A stretch of DNA of 42,350 nucleotides from Acidimicrobiales bacterium (lineage in GTDB: Bacteria > Actinomycetota > Acidimicrobiia > Acidimicrobiales > RAAP-2), in contig JADGOE010000020.1 in NCBI GenBank assembly GCA_017883135.1, forward strand, positions 1-42,350, given 5' to 3'. The notes beneath the pieces were generated by a model that ran no database searches, was not told the DNA's origin, and was given only the letters and a program-made list of their open reading frames with translations. This document shows positions 36,877 through 42,350 of the stretch, piece after piece; position 1 is the stretch's first letter, and every line of letters begins with the position of its first letter. The position numbers were made by a program, and so were the translations under genes.

Positions 36877-39056
36877 CCATCTGGCAGCGGGTGGTCCAGG
36901 CGAATCGGCCCGGGCCACCCGAGCACTCGATCCAATTCCGCGTTGCGTCCACGGCCGCGGTGATGGTCGCCGCCGCTGCCTGCTGGAGCCAGGGGGAGAT
37001 CGACCTGCCGGTCGCCCTGTTCACCATGGTTGCCACGGTGGTCGGCAACGTCCTGTCCTATCGGCGCCGCTCGAAGCCGTGGCCGGTGGTGAAGCCGATT
37101 CTGGCCGCCTGCGCCATCGCCGGCTTCGTGTGGTTCATCGCCACCGTGGCCCACACCGCCACGCCCGGCGACATCTCGACGGTGGAGGGTCCCCTGGCCG
37201 TGCTGTTCACCTGGGTGCTGAGCACCCACGCGTTTGACGTCCCGTCCCGCAGGGACGTGGCCTACTCGCTGGCCGGTTCAGCCGCTCTGATGGCGGTGGC
37301 GGCGGCCCAGTCGGTGGACCTGTCCCTCGGGCCCTACGTGGTGGCCTGGGTTGCCTGCGGCATCTGGGGGCTGGTCTCCATGTGGCAGTCGATGGCCGGC
37401 GCCCGCGGGGTCCCGTGGCTCACCGTGGGGGTCGCCGGAATGGCGGTCCTCGTGGTGGCCGGCCTGTTGGTCTCTGTCCTGCCGGCACCCCGGGTCTCGA
37501 CATCGCTCATCTTCCCGTCCACCTCGGCCAATTCCGCACCGGTCGACAGCACCAACAACCTGACCGACGGCTCAGCGAGCCTCCCCGCCCATGCCGCCAG
37601 CCCTCAGGGCCGCACCGGGGTCGGCGGCTTCCTCGGTTTTGCCAAGTCCCTGGACACCGGAGTCCGCGCATCACTGGGGAACGAGGTCGTGATGCGGGTG
37701 CGTGCAAGCCGGCCCAACTTCTGGATCGGCCAGACCTACGACCGGTGGGACGGGCAGAACTGGGTGCAGTCGACCGAGCCGGCTGATGGCAAGAACGGGC
37801 ACGTGACCACGTTGGCGACGGGGTCACCGTTCACCATCCCCGTCACCTCCGACCAAGTGGCCGTCCAGTCCACCGGAGCCACCGACGTCCAGACCTACTA
37901 CCTCGCCCAATCGGGGCCTAACCTGGTCTTCCATGCCGACACGGCCCAGCGGGTGTACCTCCAGTCCCGCTCCCTCTTCCTGACCGGCGACGGCACGATC
38001 GTCTCGACCACCTCGATGGGGGCCGGCACGATCTACACGGTGGTCTCCAACGACAACTCGGCAACCGCAAGGCAACTGCGGAATGCCACCATCCCGCTGT
38101 CCCCCACCGACCCGGGAGCCCTCACTCCGCTCAGCCCCGGCGAGCTGCTCCGCTACCGCCAGCTCCCCCACGCAGATCCCCGGGTTTCCGCCCTGGCCGC
38201 CCGGATCACCTCGGGTATCGGAGCCCCCGGTGACGTCGACACACATGTCTATGACAAGGTCGAAGCCATCGAGGCATGGATGTCCTCGCGCATCAGGTAC
38301 ACCACCGACATCCCACCACTCGCCCCCCACGCGGACGCGGTCGACACCTTCCTCTTCGGCGCCCGCTTGGGCTACTGCGAGCAGATCTCCACGGCCACCG
38401 TGGTCATGCTGCGCTCCCTCGGCATTGCGGCCCGCGAGACGGTGGGGTACGTGCCAGGGCCCTACAACCCGATCACCGACCTCTACGACGTCCAGGCCAA
38501 GGATGCCCACGCCTGGGTGCAGGTCTGGTTCCCCGGATTCGGCTGGCAGAACTTCGACCCCACCGCGGTGGTGCCGCTGGCGAACCCGGCGCCGGGCTCG
38601 GTCATCGCCCACCACGCCGGCACCACGTTGCGCCACCTCCCCTGGATTCCGATCGCCGTCGTCGCGACAACGGCGATCGCCATCGGGCAGTTCCGCCGGC
38701 GGCGCCGGCGGCGCCCTCCCACATGGGCCCACCAGGTCGCCGCCGATCTCGACCGGGGCGGGGGGCGCCTGGGTCGGTCCCGACGCCCCGACGAGACACT
38801 CACCGCCTACGGCGAACGCCTTGCAGGCACCGACCTTACGAACGCCGAAGCGTTGATCGGGACCACCCGGTTGGTGGAGCGCTGCAGCTACGGTGGGATC
38901 GAGCCCTCGGCCGATCAGATCGCGGGGGCCCTTGCCTTCACCCGCCGGTACCGCTCCGTCCGCCGGACGAACAGCGTGGAGAGGTGCACCGATCAGGACC
39001 GCGCCGAGGCCAACGCCTCGTCGAAGGAGGCCCCGGCGACCAGCAGGGGCCGATAG
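36873..39056 (+). CDS. TgpA-like membrane transglutaminase-fold protein
   Basis: This is a 727-residue protein: about six N-terminal transmembrane helices (residues 20-220), a large extracytoplasmic region, and a transglutaminase core with triad Cys502 (GYCEQ), His546 (DAHAWVQV) and Asp562 (NFDPTA). A last membrane helix (PWIPIAVVATTAIAIG) is followed by an arginine-rich stop-transfer (RRRRRRRP) and a cytoplasmic DUF4129-like domain. It matches the DUF3488-transglutaminase (TgpA) family that partners MoxR and DUF58; it may cross-link or cleave envelope proteins. GTG 36873 is set by the GTGA overlap. Its 3-prime end overlaps the convergent reductase gene by 64 bases. Confidence 0.9.
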   Translation: MTIWQRVVQANRPGPPEHSIQFRVASTAAVMVAAAACWSQGEIDLPVALFTMVATVVGNVLSYRRRSKPWPVVKPILAACAIAGFVWFIATVAHTATPGDISTVEGPLAVLFTWVLSTHAFDVPSRRDVAYSLAGSAALMAVAAAQSVDLSLGPYVVAWVACGIWGLVSMWQSMAGARGVPWLTVGVAGMAVLVVAGLLVSVLPAPRVSTSLIFPSTSANSAPVDSTNNLTDGSASLPAHAASPQGRTGVGGFLGFAKSLDTGVRASLGNEVVMRVRASRPNFWIGQTYDRWDGQNWVQSTEPADGKNGHVTTLATGSPFTIPVTSDQVAVQSTGATDVQTYYLAQSGPNLVFHADTAQRVYLQSRSLFLTGDGTIVSTTSMGAGTIYTVVSNDNSATARQLRNATIPLSPTDPGALTPLSPGELLRYRQLPHADPRVSALAARITSGIGAPGDVDTHVYDKVEAIEAWMSSRIRYTTDIPPLAPHADAVDTFLFGARLGYCEQISTATVVMLRSLGIAARETVGYVPGPYNPITDLYDVQAKDAHAWVQVWFPGFGWQNFDPTAVVPLANPAPGSVIAHHAGTTLRHLPWIPIAVVATTAIAIGQFRRRRRRRPPTWAHQVAADLDRGGGRLGRSRRPDETLTAYGERLAGTDLTNAEALIGTTRLVERCSYGGIEPSADQIAGALAFTRRYRSVRRTNSVERCTDQDRAEANASSKEAPATSRGR

Positions 39057-40228
39057 GACATCAGCTGGCGCGGTTGGCTGAAGGCCAGCACGGCACGGAG
39101 CCGATCTCCGCGGCGGTAGAGGGCCACCAACTTGCGCTCGTCCACCGACCCCCCCACCACGACGACTTCGTCGCCGGGGCCCGGCACTCCGATCATCTGG
39201 ATCTTCGTCGAGTACTGGTCCGACCAGAAGAACGGGATCGGGTCGTACGGCTGGGACCCGGCCGATCCGGCCAGAAGGTTGCGAGCGGCCGCGGCACCGC
39301 CTTCGGCGGCGTTGGTCCAATGCTCGACACGAGACAACTCACCGGTCGCGGGGTACATCCACCGGGCCACGTCTCCGGCGGCCACCACGCGGTCGTGGGC
39401 GAACAGGCTCTGGTCGCACACCACGCCGTTCTCCAGGGTGACGCCCGAATCCTCCAACCAGTCGACGGCCGGCTCCACACCGACGCCCACCACCACCAGG
39501 TCCGCGTCGAGGCTGTTGCCGTCCATCAGATGAACGACGACCGGGGTCGGCCCGCCAGGGTGCGAAGACAGGCGCTCCACCCCGACGCCGGTCAGGAGCT
39601 CTACCCCGTTGTCACGGTGGAGCCCGGCGCACACCTCCCCCATCGCATCACCCAGCACCCGTCCCAAGGGGGTCGGGAGCGCCTCGACCATCGTGACCCG
39701 TGCCCCCAAGCCGTGACAAGTGGCGGCAACTTCGGAACCGATGAACCCGGCGCCGATCACCACCACCCGCGCTCCCTCGCCGGCCGACTCGAGACCTGCT
39801 CGGACGCCCAGACAGTCATCGAGGGTCCGTAGCGTCCAGACGCCGGGGATCCCACCGGTGCCCGGGAGCCGGCGGGCCCGGGCACCGGTGGCCACCACCA
39901 GCCCGTCGTAGTGCAGCTCCGTCCCGTCGTCGAAGGTCACCGTGCGGGCGTCGGTGTCGAGTGACGTGGCTCGCCGGCCGAGTCGGAACTCGAGCCCCAG
40001 CGTGTCGAGCCGGTCGGGCGCGTGGTGGTGGATGCGCTCGACGTCCCAGGTGCCGGCCAGGAATTGCTTGGACAGCGGGGGCCGGTCATAGGGGGCGTGC
40101 TGCTCGTCGCCGACGACGATGACCGGGCCCCCATGGCCTTCGTGGCGGATCTCTTCGGCAGCGCGAAGTCCGGCCAACGATGCGCCGATGACGAGGATCG
40201 TAGACTCTGTGGGCTGGGGATCGGTCAT
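38993..40228 (-). CDS. Ferredoxin reductase (FAD, NAD(P)H)
   Basis: This is a 411-residue FAD/NAD oxidoreductase with the FAD motif VIGASLAGLRAAEE (N-terminus), YDRPPLSKQFLAG, VVATGARARRLPG, the NAD motif VVVIGAGFIGSEVA, and AAGDVARW. The C-terminal domain has VEHWTNAAEGG and FFWSDQY, as in rhodocoxin- and putidaredoxin-reductases. It passes electrons from NAD(P)H to a ferredoxin, plausibly that at 11110-11307 for the P450s; no P450 or ferredoxin is adjacent here. ATG 40228 follows the MBL-protein stop by 46 bases. The last 21 codons overlap the end of the transglutaminase gene on the other strand. Confidence 0.9.
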   Translation of the reverse strand: MTDPQPTESTILVIGASLAGLRAAEEIRHEGHGGPVIVVGDEQHAPYDRPPLSKQFLAGTWDVERIHHHAPDRLDTLGLEFRLGRRATSLDTDARTVTFDDGTELHYDGLVVATGARARRLPGTGGIPGVWTLRTLDDCLGVRAGLESAGEGARVVVIGAGFIGSEVAATCHGLGARVTMVEALPTPLGRVLGDAMGEVCAGLHRDNGVELLTGVGVERLSSHPGGPTPVVVHLMDGNSLDADLVVVGVGVEPAVDWLEDSGVTLENGVVCDQSLFAHDRVVAAGDVARWMYPATGELSRVEHWTNAAEGGAAAARNLLAGSAGSQPYDPIPFFWSDQYSTKIQMIGVPGPGDEVVVVGGSVDERKLVALYRRGDRLRAVLAFSQPRQLMSYRPLLVAGASFDEALASARS

Positions 40229-40274: not shown

Positions 40275-41024
40275 TCACTGGCCGAACATGGTCATCCACT
40301 GCTCGGGCGTCCGCAGACGGAACACGTAGTTGTGTGATCGGGTCTGGCCCATGGTGGCCGATGGCTCGTCCGAGTAGAGGTGGCCCGGATACAGCACCGT
40401 GTCGTCGGGAACCCGGGCCAGTCGGGTGGTCAGGGACTCGTACATGGCCTCGGGGTCCCCACCGGGCAGGTCGGTGCGACCGCACCCGTCGAGGAAGAGC
40501 GTGTCGCCGGCGATCAAGCGCCCGCCGACCAGAAAGCACTGGCTTCCCGGAGTGTGGCCCGGAGTGTGGACCAGGGTGATGGGGATGGCGCCCACCTCGA
40601 CGAGGTCCCCTCCCCGATGGGTGACCAGATCCTCGGCACCTACGCCCGTCGAGCGAACCACCCAGGGCGACTCGTCGGCCTGGACGTGCACGGGGACCTG
40701 GGCCACCTCGACCAGCCGGCCGATCCCCTCGATCCCCCAGCCCATCAGGTCGCCGCCCACATGGTCGGGGTGGTAGTGGGTGGCCAGGGCGCCCACACAC
40801 TCCATGTCATCGGCCCGCAGAATCCCGAGGAGCTCGTCGACGCCGTAGGCGGGGTCGACGATCACGGCCTCGCCGGTGACCGTGTCCCCGACCAGATAGA
40901 CGAAGTTCACCATTTGCCGGGCGATCTGGTCGTCGACGGCGAAGTCCCGGCCGGCCAGCAGTTGACGGAAGTAGAGGCGGTCAGATTCCGGCGAGGTCGG
41001 ATCCTCTGTGTCGTTGTCGGTCAC
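40275..41024 (-). CDS. MBL-fold hydrolase, glyoxalase II/persulfide dioxygenase type
   Basis: This is a 249-residue metallo-beta-lactamase-fold protein: THYHPDH (His83, His85, Asp87, His88), LVHTPGHTPGSQC, IAGDTLFLDGCGRTDLPGG and YPGHLYSDEPSATMG. The GCGRTDLPGGD block is shared by glyoxalase II-like enzymes and persulfide dioxygenases (ETHE1 type); full discrimination is not possible. Unusually long spacing between the first and second motif blocks holds a segment (EGIGRLVEVAQVPVHVQADE). GTG 41024 has AAGG at seven bases; GTG 41030 has none. It diverges from the CoA ligase and shares with it an inverted repeat at 41109-41138. Confidence 0.88.
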   Translation of the reverse strand: MTDNDTEDPTSPESDRLYFRQLLAGRDFAVDDQIARQMVNFVYLVGDTVTGEAVIVDPAYGVDELLGILRADDMECVGALATHYHPDHVGGDLMGWGIEGIGRLVEVAQVPVHVQADESPWVVRSTGVGAEDLVTHRGGDLVEVGAIPITLVHTPGHTPGSQCFLVGGRLIAGDTLFLDGCGRTDLPGGDPEAMYESLTTRLARVPDDTVLYPGHLYSDEPSATMGQTRSHNYVFRLRTPEQWMTMFGQ

Positions 41025-41108
41025 TCCCACACCTTACGGTCGGAGCACGGACCCGGTCCCCTTCGGGAAGCGCCCGGCGTGGCACACGAGAACGATCTAC
41101 AGTTCCCT

Positions 41109-41208: not shown

Positions 41209-42291
41209 GTGACCGACGACCAAGGACGGACCTCCGTGGCAGCGGAGTACCAGACTGCGGCACAGATGCTGCGCCACTGGGCAACCCGGACCCCCGACGC
41301 TCCCATGTTGACCCTGGCGACCACCACGCTGACCTGGAGCCAGGTGTACGCGAACGCCAAGCGGGTGAGCCACGCGCTGGCTGCCGAGGGAGTGGTGCCC
41401 GGCGAGCGGGTCCCCTTCCTCGACCGCAACTGCATCGAGTACTTCGAGGTCTTCTTCGGTTGCGCGCTGCTCGGGGCGGTGAGCGTGGCCGTCAACTGGC
41501 GGCTTGCCCCGGCCGAGATGGCCGCCATCCTCGAGGACGCCCAGGCATCGGTCCTCTTCTACGGGAACGAGTACAACGGTGCCGTCAAGGACATGACCCC
41601 TCTGGTCACCTCCGTCCGCACCTGGGTGCCACTGGAGCAGCTCGACGACTGGCGGGGTGCCGGCGTTACCGATGAACCGGACGACCCAGGGTTCGCCCCC
41701 AGCCCCGACGACGTGGTCACCCAGCTGTACACCTCAGGGACCGCCGGGCTCCCCAAAGGGGCGATGATCTCGGGAAGGAACATCTCGACCATCCTGAACG
41801 AGGCGATCGGGATCTTCCATATCGGTGCCGACACGGTCTCGCTGGTCGCCATGCCGCTCTTCCACATCGGGGGAACCGGATGGGCGCTGTCGGGCATGTC
41901 GCGCGGCGGGCATTCGGTCATCGTGCGGGACATCGACCCCGCCGTGATCCTCGGGATCATCGAGGAGCACAGGATCACCGAGACGTTCGTCGTCCCCGCG
42001 GTGCTGATGTTCCTGCTGGCCACCCCCGAGCTGGCCACCACGGACGTCAGCTCGCTCCGCACGGTCTTCTACGGCGCCTCCCCGATCAGCGTGGACGTAC
42101 TGGTCCGCTCGATGGAAGCGCTCGGATGCGAGTTCGCCCAGGTCTACGGGCTCACCGAGACCACTGGCGCCATCACCTCCCTGATGCCCGAGGACCACGA
42201 CCCCGACGGCCCGCGTGCCCATCTGCTGCGCTCCGCCGGGCGCCCCTTCGACCACTCGGAACTTGCGTTCTACAGGCCGAGGGCCGCCTAG
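41209..42291 (+). pseudogene. Acyl-CoA synthetase, C-terminal part missing
   Basis: This is an ANL CoA ligase that runs normally for about 350 residues: start motifs, VNWRLAPAEMA, P-loop variant YTSGTAGLPKGAM (Ala where Thr is usual), PLFHIGGTGWALSGM, TVFYGASPIS and QVYGLTETTGAI. After SAGRPFDHSE (base 42261) it loses all resemblance and stops at 42291. The family needs another 160 or so residues, including YxTGD, the hinge and the catalytic lysine, so this product could not complete catalysis. No single-base shift restores the family sequence in any of the three frames through 42350. GTG 41209 has AAGGGG eight bases upstream. It is either interrupted or an assembly edge. Confidence 0.75.
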
Positions 42292-42350
42292 CCATTCTTC
42301 CTGGCCAGAACCGTAGACGAGGCGACGTGGACCACTCCGCCAACGCCTTG
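42288..42350 (-). CDS. Possible partial minus-strand ORF at window edge
   Basis: In the sequence beyond the ligase break one minus-strand frame reads GVGGVVHVASSTVLARKNG and stops at 42288-42290, inside the ligase stop codon. The composition would fit the end of a protein running in from the right. With 20 residues no family can be named. Confidence 0.2.
   Translation of the reverse strand, partial: QGVGGVVHVASSTVLARKNG

Follow-up and report, generated by a model that had tools for sequence, protein, structure and literature searches.

An acyl-CoA synthetase/ligase-type gene that breaks off at the end of an Acidimicrobiales contig: most likely an assembly breakpoint

Introduction

At the right end of a contig from an Acidimicrobiales bacterium (GenBank assembly GCA_017883135.1, contig JADGOE010000020.1), a gene for an AMP-binding enzyme loses its family sequence within a few codons and runs into a stop. 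Has this gene been interrupted in the organism, or has it been interrupted in the assembly? The window, i.e., the whole stretch of DNA that was analysed, is the complete contig C31 (42,350 bases) of the draft genome G000 (2.96 Mb, 126 contigs, rated 98% complete), and position 42350 is a physical contig end; the sequence in question spans the final 96 bases of the window (42255-42350). An earlier sequence-only reading of these bases had proposed an insertion, a deletion or a chimeric contig end rather than a simple frameshift. The analysis described here indicates that the sequence does contain the break, which is most likely not a feature of the organism's biology.

The ligase gene and the position of its break

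The break and its surroundings comprise the following features.

38993..40228, minus strand: FAD/NAD-dependent reductase-type protein, intact neighbouring gene in synteny with G007 (PF07992, E=1.1e-60; PF14759, E=8.5e-18)
40275..41030, minus strand: metallo-beta-lactamase-fold hydrolase, intact neighbouring gene in synteny with G007 (PF00753, E=1.1e-17)
41209..42255, plus strand: acyl-CoA synthetase/ligase-type gene, 5′ two thirds, GTG start (PF00501)
42256..42350, no strand assigned: non-homologous tail of 95 bases (86 bases if the codons to 42264 are counted as ligase), delimited by the drop in similarity to G007
42289..42291, plus strand: accidental stop codon in the tail, from the frame translation

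The frame 41209-42288 encodes an AMP-binding enzyme through ...SAGRPFDHSEL, followed by AFYRPRAA and the stop codon TAG at 42289-42291. In Pfam searches this frame matches PF00501 over positions 1-353 of the 384 of the profile (E=6.1e-69, 233.1 bits), while PF13193 (AMP-binding_C) is absent from it on C31, and the frame is not claimed to encode an intact enzyme. The closest comparison is offered by the related genome G007, whose ortholog of the ligase is 85% identical and which aligns with the 4.27 kb 5′ of the break in a single alignment at 82% identity. C31 thus resembles the genus orthologs, which carry both PF00501 and PF13193, in the N-terminal part of the enzyme and in the 5′ neighbours, but differs from them in lacking the C-terminal third; in 16 of 16 relatives' loci (L004-L019) the ligase continues beyond the break position to its full C-terminus. 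Among seven named loci that contain a relative of the ligase, three belong to metagenome-assembled Acidimicrobiaceae (bog_575, KR3_bin-1063, and palsa_738), bog_575 being the closest. At 41743-41745, the conserved ligase motif (YTSGTAGLPKG) has Ala in C31 and Thr in the loci L004-L019.

The loss of similarity is abrupt. Compared with G007 in steps of 20 bases, the window is identical at 15-20 of 20 positions in all sixteen steps of 41923-42242 and at 15 of 20 in 42243-42262; the next four steps give 6, 9, 7, and 9 of 20, and the final 8 bases give 4 of 8. The earlier observation that family similarity is lost after SAGRPFDHSE in all three frames is therefore borne out: similarity is gone within 42255-42264, also at the DNA level. 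A pattern scan of the relatives' loci at the break matched 17 of 19 (L020 and L022 were unmatched), and in all loci found in this way the codon corresponding to 42256-42258, which specifies Ser in C31, specifies Val. The E-L codons that follow the Ser fit the family; their third bases are A and T, against a GC3 of 0.903 in the preceding gene. Judged by the change from Val to Ser and by these two A/T third bases, the break would best be placed at 42255/42256, at the latest at 42264, which gives a tail of about 95 bases, and the family-like E-L after it may be due to chance.

Past the break, 8-11 codons unrelated to the family precede the stop, whose early occurrence had also been pointed out. 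The minus-strand frame described as ending inside the same stop does exist as well and ends in the same CTAG, but it comprises only about 20 codons and carries no weight. A continuation of the ligase family was sought in every frame of the tail and none was found. A simple frameshift, or another local error in an otherwise continuous ligase, is for this reason extremely improbable: similarity has disappeared in all frames and from the DNA itself, and no point in support of such an error emerged.

The sequence expected downstream

In the relatives, the sequence next in line is a block consisting of the 3′ third of the ligase, xseB (identified by Pfam in G007), xseA, and rnpB. The neighbourhood of xseA and rnpB is present in 10 of the 11 relatives' loci, and 9 of these 10 have the ligase turned towards xseA, the arrangement seen in G007. 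The interval between the break point and the rnpB end measures 2,977 bases in G007 and about 2.7-3.5 kb in the 8 of 11 loci from which it was taken (L065, L067, and L070-L075; L068 was excluded because its break point was a spurious pattern match, L069 has no rnpB, and the ligase of L076 is flipped).

The missing half of the ligase, which according to the earlier reading might have turned up in another contig, was sought in the G000 assembly and was not found there. For the orthologous 3′ part of the ligase and for xseB, the best matches in G000 (65-79%) lie inside other ligase-type genes and are followed by short chance matches, and none of the 19 PF13193 hits of this genome is a gene fragment at a contig end. 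Searches of the same assembly found neither xseA nor an RNase P RNA (rnpB, RF00010). As controls, the xseA query detects its target in 11 of the 13 other genomes of the genus (G006 and G009 gave no match; the G006 contig stops about 0.5 kb past the ligase), and RF00010 gives a match in 11 of the 14 control genomes as well as in 10 of the 11 loci from relatives.

As hardly any bacterium can do without rnpB, the block is unlikely to have been truly deleted, and an assembly gap is the plain reading. The smallest G000 contig among the 114 of 126 examined measures 2,987 bases, and a short orphan piece carrying the missing block could have been lost under a length cut-off. Such a loss would be natural given that recombinase genes and several contig ends are found beyond rnpB in this genus.

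Shared contig ends in the assembly

Passages of the paper on COBRA describe that assemblers (IDBA_UD, metaSPAdes, and MEGAHIT) fragment at multiple paths and that the end sequences correspond to maxK or maxK-1, which is 99 bp under the simulation settings used there (PMC10914622). Of the 252 contig ends of G000, 122 were compared with one another (100 left ends, 20 right ends, and both ends of C31), an end being counted as shared if an exact 25-mer lay within 6 bases of it. Terminal sequence is shared with another end in 28 of the 122, the longest exact overlap being 99 bases, and 94 have no partner. In 15 of the 122, 94-99 bases are shared with an end that is flanked differently, the edge of one common sequence being reached from two places. 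The count of 28 retains all cases, including one end (L182/L180, 28 bases, internal) whose overlap is probably not genuine and five more pairs with 37-85 bases. For the right end of C31, neither the 122 ends nor the 126 binned contigs contain a partner sequence. A survey of open frames at 42 contig ends was non-discriminating, as frames often stop within 200 bases of an end.

Two sets of shared ends deserve separate mention. The contigs C1, C30, and C112 of G000 (L102, L131, and L217:1-99) start with identical 96-99 bases and then diverge; their shared start is a repeat edge with at least three contexts. In the end pairs L167/L181:1-99 and L206/L207:1-99 of the same genome, motifs look alike by eye (..GGCGGAG.TT..TAGTTGAGGCAA..). 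Of 242 loci, L167 and L181 alone contain this motif as written; it is absent from the window. The two pairs perhaps represent one dispersed repeat family, the likeness of L206/L207 having been judged by eye.

In the light of these overlaps, the break in the ligase very probably reflects no more than a contig ending in the ordinary way for a short-read de Bruijn-graph assembly. The assembly walk would leave the unique sequence of the ligase at about 42255, continue for about one k-mer along sequence from a different graph path, and stop at the branch. The last 95-99 bases would accordingly represent the assembler's terminal overlap and lie outside the gene, and the true continuation (the 3′ third of the ligase, xseB, xseA, and rnpB) would be carried by a piece missing from the bin. 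As the source of the other path, a repeat, a strain variant, a chimeric molecule, or another organism might be considered. The corresponding feature would be the following.

42252..42350, plus strand: putative terminal 99-mer (assembler overlap length), based on end overlaps of up to 99 bases; partner not among the G000 contigs

C31 is like the de Bruijn-graph contig ends treated in those passages (PMC10914622) in that the break is situated at a contig end, in that overlaps in the assembly reach up to 99 bases, and in that the tail is of about that size; it is unlike them in that the partner contig of the C31 end is not in the bin and the overlap is presumed. That the right end of C31 obeys the 99-base overlap rule is what we infer, and the same applies to the origin of the branch. 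The non-homologous tail (86-95 bases) does not exceed the maximal end overlap. On the other hand, counted from the last family-like codon it measures 86 bases, slightly less than 94-99, and end overlaps of 37-85 bases also occur. A tail of less than read length would also result from a chimeric read at a coverage gap.

Among the options put forward earlier, the chimeric contig end is favoured because the tail approximates a terminal overlap of this assembly and because the downstream block was not found in it. The dismissal of a frameshift also stands. The biological insertion or deletion named alongside fares less well: the tail has neither a significant second copy nor an element that could be recognised, and rnpB, whose genuine loss would be surprising, is part of the missing block. 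For the annotation of such contigs this means that the last 100 bases or so may follow another path and thereby fake a truncated or interrupted gene. In the present case, one gap removes the end of the ligase, xseB, xseA, and rnpB from an assembly rated 98% complete.

Composition and relatives of the tail

Unrelated DNA could also have been joined to the ligase by a chimeric library molecule or by a mis-assembled tip at a coverage gap, an explanation that we regard as conceivable, if doubtful. In its favour, good matches to the tail were lacking in both searches of related genomes, in which scoring covered the best 5 or 2 candidates of each genome: in the family, 3 of 172 genomes matched at E<=0.001, one of them being G000 itself and the other two weak, and in the class G000 was the only one among 395 genomes at E<=1e-4. 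The failure to find the true continuation of the ligase in G000 fits this explanation as well. Against it, a tail of nearly 99 bases is explained more directly by a terminal overlap, and the tail does not stand out as foreign by its composition (65% GC versus 68% in the ligase gene).

A second copy of the tail would be expected if the ligase had been interrupted by a real insertion of a mobile element or repeat, the tail then constituting the first 99 bases or so of a multi-copy element whose several contexts halted the assembler. Such an insertion is rather unlikely. Shared ends are indeed common in this assembly, with the 15 ends that have 94-99 bases in common with a differently flanked end, and the contig crosses the junction, which suggests that junction k-mers were present in the graph. 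However, no significant second copy was detected in the 126 contigs of G000, where the best other matches have E=0.131 and 0.123; an origin of the tail from elsewhere in G000 was ruled out on the same grounds. Contigs outside the bin may still carry copies. The tail matches no plasmid and gives only two marginal matches to phages (E=0.8), and exact 24-mers from it were found neither in viral contigs (3 patterns) nor in contigs of the species genomes (1 pattern). While the abrupt loss of homology within a gene is what an insertion-sequence interruption would also produce, neither an element or transposase nor a second copy is seen here, and a single boundary is visible. To some extent, insertion and chimera could themselves have caused the branch at which the assembly would have stopped, and the confidence placed in each overlaps with that placed in an ordinary contig end.

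At the loose cut-off of E<=1, short matches to the tail occur in 13 of the 14 genomes of the genus, mostly by plain chance. Three candidate origins were considered and set aside. First, a match in G097, a genome of another genus of the family, lies in a ruvA-type gene, which we take to be ruvA from its appearance (E=5.5e-4); the idea that the tail is a minus-strand ruvA was dropped because the match is weak and because G000 has a gene with RuvA_N on C24. Second, a match in G005 to what is presumably, as recognised by eye, the end of a MaoC-type gene was judged to be chance (E=0.0014; a similar stretch of G010 gives E=0.39). Third, an internal deletion, in which the tail would be later sequence of the ligase or of its downstream region, was rejected, since the best placement of the tail in the 14-kb locus of G007 is a stretch of 29 bases near 2286 and not in the ligase.

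A match beyond rnpB and the variable flank

This stretch of 29 bases is also the best match of the tail overall. It aligns 42321-42349 with G007:C94:2286-2314 at 90% identity, with E=3e-4 for a single genome, which becomes about 0.004 once all 14 genomes are counted. In G007 it lies on the same contig as the orthologous ligase, about 4 kb from the equivalent of the break, past rnpB and beside a tyrosine-recombinase fragment (PF00589). In a control with 1,100 shuffles over 11 loci, none reached its score, the best being one point lower, while the tail scores in the 10 other relatives' loci are at shuffle level. The match may be regarded as a lead, not as proof of a rearrangement, and chance would explain it awkwardly.

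If taken at face value, it would point to a true inversion or other rearrangement between the ligase and a mobile-element remnant beside rnpB, or to a mobile element of an rnpB hotspot. Either event would have joined element DNA to the 5′ two thirds of the ligase, and the tail would be the edge of the element. The proximity of the match to the orthologous locus, its orientation, which is the one an inversion would give, and the outcome of the shuffles are consistent with this. The locus has moreover undergone rearrangement: in G003 (L076:5971-10053) the ligase is on the same strand as xseA, i.e., flipped relative to the arrangement in the other relatives. We nevertheless consider an event of this kind in C31 quite improbable. 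The match covers only 29 bases and leaves the remaining 57-66 bases of the tail unmatched there, its significance shrinks once 14 genomes are taken into account, and the other 10 loci do not rise above shuffled sequence. In G007, the short frame spanning the match yields no Pfam hit and has no relative among the loci compared. The match in the ruvA-type gene of the other genus is nearly equal in strength, and G000 has its own RuvA_N gene. Finally, the argument from location was made post hoc, and the assembly does not contain the second breakpoint. An ordinary contig end thus remains the preferred reading of the break.

Independently of C31, the genus seems to have an integration hotspot at rnpB. 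No tRNA was found at the break or in the locus in 13 sources, no attachment-site duplication at rnpB was detected in the stretches examined, and no description of such a hotspot in the genus was encountered among the literature matches listed. In the rnpB flank of L073, the frame is broken; the single frame tested has no Pfam match, and its kinship derives from tblastn. The contigs of four relatives (L067:1-160, L068:1-104, L070:1-28, and L075:1-253) end about 30-250 bases past rnpB, as would be expected if variable mobile elements at this site break assemblies.
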